50,343 nt of DNA, taken from NCBI GenBank assembly GCA_016192945.1, contig JACPTE010000010.1:1-50343 (forward strand), given 5' to 3'. A program made the translations under genes and the position numbers. The notes beneath the pieces are model-generated. The model made no database searches. It saw only the letters and a program-made list of their open reading frames with translations, and was not told the origin of the DNA. Below are positions 16,880-18,782 of the stretch, in pieces (position 1 is the first letter of the stretch; every line of letters starts with the position of its first letter). The stretch is from Candidatus Woesearchaeota archaeon. GTDB lineage: Archaea; Nanobdellota; Nanobdellia; Woesearchaeales; UBA10216.

Positions 16880-16985
16880 GGGCTCATAGCTTAGCCTGGT
16901 AGAGCGGCTGGCTCTTAACCAGCAGGTCCAGGGCAGGTATCAACATCATGGTGATGCCTATGGAATTCGAATCCCTGTGGGCCCA
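16880..16985 (+). tRNA. tRNA-Lys(CTT) with intron in the T arm
   Basis: Acceptor GGGCTCA (16880-16886) pairs with TGGGCCC (16978-16984), discriminator A at 16985. The D arm GCTT...GAGC, the anticodon stem GCTGG/CCAGC and the loop CTCTTAA (anticodon CTT, 16914-16916) are regular. The T stem CAGGG (16929-16933) pairs with CCCTG (16973-16977), but the T loop TTCGAAT (16966-16972) is separated from its 5' strand by a 32-nt insertion (16934-16965). That insertion folds into an 8-bp hairpin, AGGTATCA/TGATGCCT. I infer an intron between positions 53 and 54. A canonical bulge-helix-bulge is not obvious. A TATA-like element (16848-16854) lies upstream. Confidence 0.88.
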
Positions 16986-17048
16986 TTTAATTTCTTAACC
17001 AGCAAAAGCTTAGGTCTCATCGAAAACCTCTTGCCACTACAACATTCA

Positions 17049-17149
17049 GAGCCAGATTCGCCTTTGTAAAACAAAGGTTCTTTTCTTCTCCCCCTCGGTA
17101 AGCGTGGGGGAAAGAAAAGAAGTTCGCATAAGCGAACCGAATCTGGCTC
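17049..17149 (+). ncRNA. Perfectly paired four-way-junction element upstream of lysK
   Basis: The 101 nt fold with no unpaired base at the junction. P1 pairs 17049-17060 with 17138-17149 (12 bp, GAGCCAGATTCG / CGAATCTGGCTC). P2 is 17061-17067/17071-17077 (7 bp, AAA loop). P3 is 17078-17094/17106-17121 (16 bp with one bulged C at 17088; loop of 11 nt containing GGTAAG). P4 is 17122-17127/17132-17137 (6 bp, ATAA loop). The arms directly abut each other. It lies between tRNA-Lys and the LysRS start codon, so it is either a leader RNA element or a DNA cruciform/miniature mobile element. No family is recognised. Confidence 0.7.
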
Positions 17150-17195
17150 AATGTATGAGCACCATAAGCAAGAGCAGAAGGATGAGGAATTCAGC

Positions 17196-18782
17196 ATGTT
17201 CTGGGCAGACCAGCTTGCGCAAAAAATAATAGGCAGGGAAAAATACAGGTATTCTGAAAAGAAAGCGCCAAAATTCAGCGAGCATGCTGTCAAGACATCT
17301 GCCTCAATTTCAGGCGTCCTCCATATAGGCAGGCTTAGCGATACCATCAGGGGGGCTTCTGTTTACAGGGCATTGAAAGAGGCGGGCGCAAAGCCAAGAT
17401 TAATCTGGGTGGCAGAGGACATGGACCCGCTGAGGAAAATTCCAGAGGGCGTCCCAAAGAGCTATGAAAAATACATAGGAGCTGCAGTCACAGACGTTCC
17501 AGACCCTGAAGGCTGCCATGGCAGCTATGCAGAGCACCACAAGGAGAAATACTTTGAGGTTCTCAGCGAGTTTGTCTTTGTAAAAATGGAAAAGCACTCC
17601 ACAAGGGAGGAATACAAGAAGGGCAGCTTCAACCCATTCATAAAAAAAATCCTCGCTTCAGCTGATGAAGTCAGAAAAATACAGAACAAGCACAGGACCA
17701 ATCCTTTGAAGAAAAACTGGAGCCCCTGGAGCCCAATATGCGGCAACTGCGGGAAAATCGTCACAGCCCGCGTCACAGGCATTGAAGACGGAAAAGTGAA
17801 CTATGTGTGCAGGGACTATATCTTTGAGTCAGCCACAGCAAAGGGATGCAACCACAAGGGCTCGGAAGACCCGCTGAAGGGGAATGGCAAGCTGCTCTGG
17901 AAAAGCGAGTGGGCTGCAGAATGGGCGCTGTGGAAAATCTGCTGCGAGGGGGCTGGCAAGGAATACAACGTCCCGAACAGCGCATTCTGGATAAATGCAG
18001 AAATAGCAGAGCAGGTGCTTGACTTCCCATCGCCTGAGCCGATGTTCTACGAGCACCTGATGATTGACGGGGTCAAGATGTCAGCATCTCTCGGAAATGT
18101 GGTTTATCCCCATGACTGGCTGGAGGTTGCAACCCCGCAGCTACTCACCTTCTTCTACAACAAGCGCCTTATGAAGACCAGGAGCTTTTCATGGAAAGAC
18201 CTGCCCCACCTGTATGATGAATATGATGATGCTGCAAGCGTGTTCTTTGGGGAAAAAAACCCTGACAACGAAAAGGAGACCAGCCACATCAAGAGGCTGT
18301 ACCAATTCTCAAACAGCGGCAATGTTGAAAGGCATCTGGGCATGAGCTTCAGCCACGCAGCAATGCTCAGCCAGATTTTCAGCACAAAAGATGGATTGCT
18401 GGGAAGCCTCAGGAAGACCGGACAATACAAAAAAGAGCTTGAAAAGGAGCTTCTGGAAAGAATCTCCAGGGCTTCTGCATGGCTCAGGAAATACGCCCCT
18501 GAAAGCGAGAGGTTTGAGCTGCAGGAAAATGTTTCGGCACAGCTTACGGAAAAGCAAAAGGAGGCGTTAAGGCTCATAGCGAAGGCCCTCAAAAGAAAGC
18601 AGTGGGACCAGAAGGAGCTGTTTGAGGAGTTCTACAGCATATCCAAGCAAATCGGGCTGGAGCCGAAGGAGCTTTTCAAGGCAGGCTACATGGTTCTCCT
18701 GAATAAAGAGCGGGGGCCTAAACTTGCGCCTTTCATCATCGCGCTTGGAGACAGGGCTTTAAGGCTGCTTGAGCAGGTGTGA
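17196..18782 (+). CDS. lysK: Lysyl-tRNA synthetase, class I
   Basis: This class I enzyme charges tRNA-Lys in many archaea in place of class II LysRS. The start at 17196 (MFWADQLAQKII) matches the family N-terminus and is preceded by an aaggatgagg Shine-Dalgarno-like stretch. An upstream ATG at 17151 would add 15 residues directly at the foot of the four-way junction. The signature SGVLHIGRLSD is the HIGH motif and KMSASLGN the KMSKS loop. A zinc-site-like segment (CGNCGKIVTARV...C...C) occurs near residues 180-220. The tRNA-Lys gene lies 211 nt upstream, suggesting coordinated expression. Confidence 0.95.
   Translation: MFWADQLAQKIIGREKYRYSEKKAPKFSEHAVKTSASISGVLHIGRLSDTIRGASVYRALKEAGAKPRLIWVAEDMDPLRKIPEGVPKSYEKYIGAAVTDVPDPEGCHGSYAEHHKEKYFEVLSEFVFVKMEKHSTREEYKKGSFNPFIKKILASADEVRKIQNKHRTNPLKKNWSPWSPICGNCGKIVTARVTGIEDGKVNYVCRDYIFESATAKGCNHKGSEDPLKGNGKLLWKSEWAAEWALWKICCEGAGKEYNVPNSAFWINAEIAEQVLDFPSPEPMFYEHLMIDGVKMSASLGNVVYPHDWLEVATPQLLTFFYNKRLMKTRSFSWKDLPHLYDEYDDAASVFFGEKNPDNEKETSHIKRLYQFSNSGNVERHLGMSFSHAAMLSQIFSTKDGLLGSLRKTGQYKKELEKELLERISRASAWLRKYAPESERFELQENVSAQLTEKQKEALRLIAKALKRKQWDQKELFEEFYSISKQIGLEPKELFKAGYMVLLNKERGPKLAPFIIALGDRALRLLEQV

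Follow-up and report, generated by a model that had tools for sequence, protein, structure and literature searches.

The window analysed here, a stretch of 50,343 nucleotides from a Candidatus Woesearchaeota archaeon, holds a segment of 101 nt predicted to fold into a four-way junction, between a tRNA-Lys gene and lysK, the gene for a class I lysyl-tRNA synthetase (LysRS). Its position raises the question of whether the segment is a switch of the synthetase gene or a mobile element that happened to land there. An earlier note on this DNA had suggested feedback control by LysRS or by uncharged tRNA-Lys, and had named a cruciform-forming miniature mobile element as the alternative.

Folding bore out the four abutting helices of 12, 7, 16 and 6 bp that had been read from the sequence, spanning all 101 nt, with a bulged base in hairpin C as the sole amendment (Table 1). 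No base is left unpaired where the helices meet, and hairpin C has a pyrimidine-rich 5' arm and a purine-rich 3' arm. As RNA, the core has a minimum free energy of -60.0 kcal/mol (z -10.4), and 0 of 200 shuffles folded equally well. The corresponding values for single-stranded DNA were -41.5 for the + strand (z -12.4) and -41.1 for the - strand (z -11.7), with the identical four-way junction predicted for both. Because every arm is an inverted repeat, the two strands would give mirror-image junctions.

Table 1. Features of the lysK locus, in positions of the window
Feature	Positions	Strand	Basis
tRNA-Lys(CUU) gene with T-arm insertion (context, outside the element)	16880..16985	+	Rfam RF00005 (47.2 bits); the sequence itself for anticodon and insertion
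MITE copy, 150 of 174 bp, without 24 bp at the lysK-side end	17013..17162	(-) relative to the complete C8 and C35 copies	99% identity to the 174-bp elements G000:C8 and G000:C35
Surviving terminal inverted repeat, GGTCTCATCGAAAACCTC	17013..17030	+	Shared with the complete copies, in which GGCGTTATTGAAAACCTC is its imperfect partner
Four-way-junction core, 101 nt	17049..17149	.	Folds of both strands; same A-B-C-D-A parse in related copies
Helix A, 12 bp	5' arm 17049-17060, 3' arm 17138-17149	.	Fold and parse of related copies
Hairpin B, 7 bp and 3-nt loop, CCTTTGT-AAA-ACAAAGG	17061..17077	.	Fold and parse
Hairpin C, 16 bp, one bulged base, 2 further bp at the tip	17078..17121	.	Fold and parse
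Hairpin D, 6 bp and 4-nt loop, GTTCGC-ATAA-GCGAAC	17122..17137	.	Fold and parse
Element sequence probably giving the ATG and first four codons (MYEH) of lysK	17151..17162	+	AATGTATGAGCAC belongs to the element in each of the four copies
lysK, class I lysyl-tRNA synthetase (context, outside the element)	17151..18782	+	ORF; 58-74% identity to full-length relatives across the family

A search of the window's own genome (G000; 1.07 Mb, 41 contigs) found the core at three or more other sites, at 98-100% identity; with at most 11 candidates scored per genome, copy numbers are lower bounds throughout. When the flanks of the genomic copies were compared, the complete repeated unit proved to be 174 bp long, GGCGTTATTGAAAACCTC...GAGGTTTTCAATGAGACC, with 18-bp imperfect terminal inverted repeats (TIRs), 8-bp target duplications and no transposase gene within it. 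The 101 nt first described are thus right as a fold but too small as a unit. The C8 copy is flanked on both sides by the target duplication GGTGGCTT and the C35 copy by ACCTGATA and ACATGATA, while the C5 copy is without the end opposite to that missing in the window. The window copy, whose alignment covers query positions 33-182 of 190, has lost one end, so a target duplication cannot be seen there. This genome also contains a second family (C3, C9 and C29), which has the core in common and carries other ends (GGCTTTGTGTA...) and 8-9-bp duplications. With dispersed copies, terminal inverted repeats, target-site duplication and no internal transposase gene, the element has the features that define a MITE. 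The copies at unrelated sites, the TIRs and the 8-bp duplications support the mobile-element alternative.

We then compared lysK loci. LysRS was found in 16 of the 19 genomes of the family, and a tRNA-Lys-like gene precedes lysK in about 10 of 14 relatives (G001, G003, G006, G007, G011, G012, G013, G014 and G016; in G004 it lies further off). A tRNA-Lys-like gene directly upstream is thus a widespread arrangement in this Woesearchaeota family (loci L054-L068), and the tRNA is often intron-bearing. The upstream regions of the 14 relatives, two of them represented by only 90 and 226 bp, contain no core. Since the core is missing from these leaders despite the kept tRNA-Lys neighbor, the MITE insertion at lysK is, as far as sequence comparison goes, specific to the lineage of the window. 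Control of lysK through LysRS or uncharged tRNA-Lys, which the place of the core between tRNA-Lys and lysK had brought to mind, was not borne out: the same element lies elsewhere, at unrelated sites, with TIRs and target duplications and in no clearly preferred orientation, and none of the 14 leaders, about 10 of which have the tRNA-Lys neighbor, contains it. We regard this reading as scarcely credible. The earlier note had proposed to look for a conserved position before lysK, which the relatives do not have, and had named scattered copies with target duplications as evidence against a leader role; such copies are what we found. A T-box- or thrS-like synthetase leader regulator was likewise rejected as a conserved mechanism, the position upstream of the synthetase gene not being conserved. 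A local effect of the MITE on lysK in the window genome alone is possible.

The element may nevertheless touch the coding sequence. The in-frame ATG 2 nt past the core had been pointed out correctly, but a start near 17196 had been preferred. In relatives, LysRS starts 5-20 residues before the motif FWADQ; because these proteins also extend upstream of FWADQ, the ATG at 17151 is the more likely start. As this ATG and the codons after it lie within the element, and the LysRS of relatives is likewise extended, the MITE probably supplies the start codon of lysK in the window genome.

Two further observations concern these loci. The tRNA-Lys(CUU) gene of the window has an apparent T-arm insertion of about 30 nt (CAGGG...ATTCGAATCCCTG) at a non-canonical intron position, and an ARAGORN run without introns misses the gene. 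Upstream of lysK in two relatives (L063 and L064, from G017 and G009) lies a common repeat (gcttttagcgattagcgacc...aaaagcat...ttagcagctctgcggtcctccga), apparently of another element family.

The ends of the copies bear on how the element might move. An exact 8-bp duplication with G...C tips flanks 18 of 88 copies; mixing left and right flanks from different copies gave 0.6 on average and 2 at most. The terminal inverted repeats begin with GG and fall into five types: A, GGYNNNATTGAAAA, found in the window; B, GGNNAANTCAAGTTAAGTG; C, GGCNNTGTAGAAAATC; D, GGTTGTTGCGAAAA; and E, GGCTTTGTGTA. The IS1595 family also makes 8-bp duplications; it was rejected as a partner, PF12762 being found in 0 of 26 MITE-carrying genomes with a positive control. 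GG tips and 8-bp duplications are traits of IS6 elements (PMC7986276) and are both present in these MITEs, and membership of the archaeal "IS6" elements in that family is disputed (PMC6807381). IS6-type transposases (PF13610) occur in 68 of the 353 genomes of the order. One such element, of 938 bp (G000:C4, about 66683-67620), has the type-B ends GATGAAGTCAAGTTAGGTGTC and GGCAAAGTCAAGTTAAGTGTC, flanks GCCAACAA and a transposase reading frame shortened to 231 codons. Others lie between type-B ends in G196 (897 bp, duplication GGCTCAGG) and G018 (945 bp, with an intact transposase frame of 269 codons), and the end GATGAAGTCAAGTAATGCGGGATAG of an IS6-type element in G011 is similar to GATAATGTCAAGTAATGCGGGATGAG, a MITE end from that genus. 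Four transposase loci with type-B ends (L268, L276, L283 and L286) matched NCBIfam NF033587 (IS6 family), two above the cut-off and two just below. No transposase with type-A ends was found in 19 G012 loci and one G000 locus, nor were matching ends found for the IS6-like transposases of G335, G128, G097 and others (L262, L267 and L269). The element is a MITE, probably related to IS6. Separately, a different structured insert (GGTGCGACGG..., with nested hairpins) is placed between type-A and type-C ends or next to them in L020 at 1501-1707 (G000:C7, 13310-13516) and in L286 at about 1000-1130, a possible second structured MITE type.

DNA similarity alone carried the search for the core into other genera, and an alignment of 14 cores was made into a covariance model. 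In these 14 cores, both partners vary in 21 of the 36 pairs, and the covariation score was 0.505, against 0.192 +/- 0.017 when shuffled and 0.06-0.15 for slid structures. With this model, 32 of the order's 353 genomes (Woesearchaeota) were found to carry the core, the best E value being 1e-26; an even sample of the phylum gave 14 genomes of the order and one marginal match outside it (G513, E 5e-4). A strict exact core pattern retrieved two records from a genome contig collection, both Candidatus Woesearchaeota, and one strict core pattern had zero matches among viral contigs. The compensatory changes that the earlier note had proposed to seek with such a model are present, yet they lie within a mobile element.

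We parsed 80 regions with our own script, which scored G·U and A·C alike, and obtained 73 distinct copies that parsed cleanly. All 73 have the form A-B-C-D-A with abutting helices; since they went in part into the covariance model, they are not an independent sample. Shuffles anchored at the junction, which are independent of the model's pairs and ignore relatedness, showed that most variable stem positions are at least 0.9 Watson-Crick, compared with 0.3-0.5 with partners shuffled, and have up to four pair types. The pairs at the junction are nearly invariant (A1 G-C in 69 of 73 copies, B1 C-G in 69, C1 T-A in 72, D1 G-C in 70 and D2 T-A in 70), B2 is C-G in 63 of 73, and pairs farther from the junction vary freely. 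The core is common to MITEs with several different terminal repeats. Rfam 15 held no match to it at the gathering score, and at a permissive threshold gave sub-threshold chance matches only, mostly to microRNA precursors; a literature search found no description of Woesearchaeota MITEs. As far as Rfam and the literature searched show, a covarying four-way-junction core spanning several end types is undescribed, and the remark that no described archaeal family fits holds to that extent.

Some copies depart from the common form. In G201 and G202 (L157, L159-L161, L166, L168, L170 and L180), core-only copies with a short helix A and no recognizable terminal repeats lie a few bases from stop or start codons, one of them between ribosomal protein genes. 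In L187 (G114:C12), hairpin D is lengthened into a much longer nested hairpin, and in L036 and L113 (G014:C48) the 3' half (hairpin D, helix A arm and end) occurs as a tandem duplicate, whether genomic or from assembly.

Covariation of this kind could reflect a transcribed structured RNA that the MITE carries as a regulator, stabilizer or insulator of neighboring genes. Such an RNA would agree with the strong RNA fold, the RNA-like covariation and the mostly intergenic location of the copies. The composition of the stems argues otherwise. Among 2811 pairs in the 73 copies, 2708 (96%) were Watson-Crick, 36 (1.3%) G·U, 22 A·C and 45 other, whereas the acceptor and T stems of 19 tRNAs from the same loci had 5.7% G·U (p = 4e-5). 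G·U slightly exceeds A·C in the cores (36:22, p = 0.087 against even), in a ratio not significantly different from that of this small tRNA sample, so an RNA contribution is possible. Both strands fold alike, and the gene contexts of the copies (++16, --12, -+9, +-7) show no clear orientation preference. Because G·U is rare and barely above A·C, and orientation shows no clear preference, the pairing pattern suggests that the core is likely constrained at the DNA level rather than as RNA. Resident copies also decay: copies with 95% or more similarity inside one genome are separated by one-sided changes only, and distant copies mostly by paired changes, which points to selection while the element moves and neutrality once it has landed. 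We therefore think a carried RNA very unlikely.

A constraint on DNA could go further. The cores may form a DNA-level structural family, in which the junction is selected as DNA, the transposase or a junction enzyme of the host recognizes its fold, and compensatory change keeps it across an archaeal order as it does structured RNAs; we advance this tentatively, at less than even odds. The perfect stems have another possible source, as template switching can generate stems without mismatches, preserve them and give rise to compensatory changes (PMC8794818), and it inverts spacers (PMC8604942). On that account switching between arms keeps the hairpins perfect and yields covariation with no selected function, the MITE being real and the cross a by-product of inverted repeats. 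It accounts for the missing G·U intermediates and agrees with the exact inversions found inside identical arms (CTGCCCGGGCGA/TCGCCCGGGCAG in G144/G335; tip CGGTAAGCG in G000 against CGCTTACCG in G001/G014). However, it leaves unexplained both the fixed junction pairs beside freely varying outer pairs and the exact abutting of four hairpins across genera. We consider it unlikely as the whole cause, and part of the covariation may come from it.

A perfect four-way junction with conserved flanking pairs also recalls a Holliday junction, and a host resolvase or recombinase might bind or cut the extruded core, for example in resolving IS6-type cointegrates. IS6 elements do form cointegrates, which are resolved by homologous recombination (PMC7986276). 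The autonomous IS6-type loci that were searched, however, have no core, and in G012 (L289-L307) hairpin C is all that is left of the core in at least 15 type-A MITEs, of which many are flanked by 8-bp duplications. Since these multiplied with hairpin C only, the most persistent part of the core, the four-way form is not needed for movement, and we find a junction mimic rather improbable.

We favor a trans-mobilized MITE whose core is retained as DNA and helps to bridge its ends, at a probability of roughly three in four from the sequences compared; against it stand the IS6 link, seen for type-B ends only when the window type is A, the G012 MITEs with hairpin C alone, and the cores of G201 and G202 that have no recognizable ends. 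The MITE consists of two imperfect GG-starting terminal inverted repeats, two short spacers and the four-way-junction core of about 100 bp. IS6-family transposases would recognize the repeats and move copies in trans, and the core would persist since active copies depend on it as DNA. It might extrude as a cruciform or fold in single-stranded DNA behind the replication fork. Unfolded, the element of 140-175 bp would be about one persistence length of stiff duplex; the folded core would shorten it and bring both ends side by side for the transposase. Once a copy has landed, this constraint would be gone and the copy would decay. Insertion near lysK was presumably tolerated, with the start codon supplied by chance. 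The folded stretch before lysK is thus, in all probability, a chance landing of a non-autonomous MITE and not a gene switch.

This reading corrects a tempting synthetase-riboswitch annotation in the window genome. Compensatory change is usually read as proof of a functional RNA, and any RNA-discovery pipeline would label the covariation of this core as a new RNA; here the signal sits in a transposon and looks DNA-based. Woesearchaeota thus offer a natural test between two possibilities: that transposition selects for a non-B DNA structure, or that template switching is all that preserves it.

T-box and thrS leader elements are, like the segment in the window, structured segments near synthetase genes; the window element differs in that it is not conserved at the gene, has no fixed orientation and is not recognized by Rfam. 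Integron attC sites, recombined by a tyrosine integrase, are also folded DNA in which structure rather than sequence is conserved, but attC is a single hairpin and the MITE core a four-way junction, and neither a cassette array nor an integrase was noticed at the MITE loci. REP/REPIN elements are palindromic repeats between genes as well, and folding plays a part in their mobility; REPINs are mobilized on single strands by Y1 transposases (RAYTs) without target duplication, whereas the Woesearchaeota MITEs have TIRs and 8-bp duplications. Archaeal MITEs such as the Sulfolobus SM elements are small, non-autonomous and scattered in genomes, as these are; we know of no conserved multi-helix core with compensatory changes in archaeal MITEs in general. 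The nearest likeness is to IS6 MITEs, of which ISfinder lists two, MITEBth2 and MITEHarch3, of 227 and 336 bp (PMC6807381, PMC7986276). Both kinds have two ends without a transposase gene, GG tips and 8-bp duplications, and IS6 transposase elements match the ends of one group of the Woesearchaeota MITEs. In contrast to the listed elements, the Woesearchaeota MITEs measure 140-175 bp and carry a covarying four-way-junction core, one and the same under several end types.
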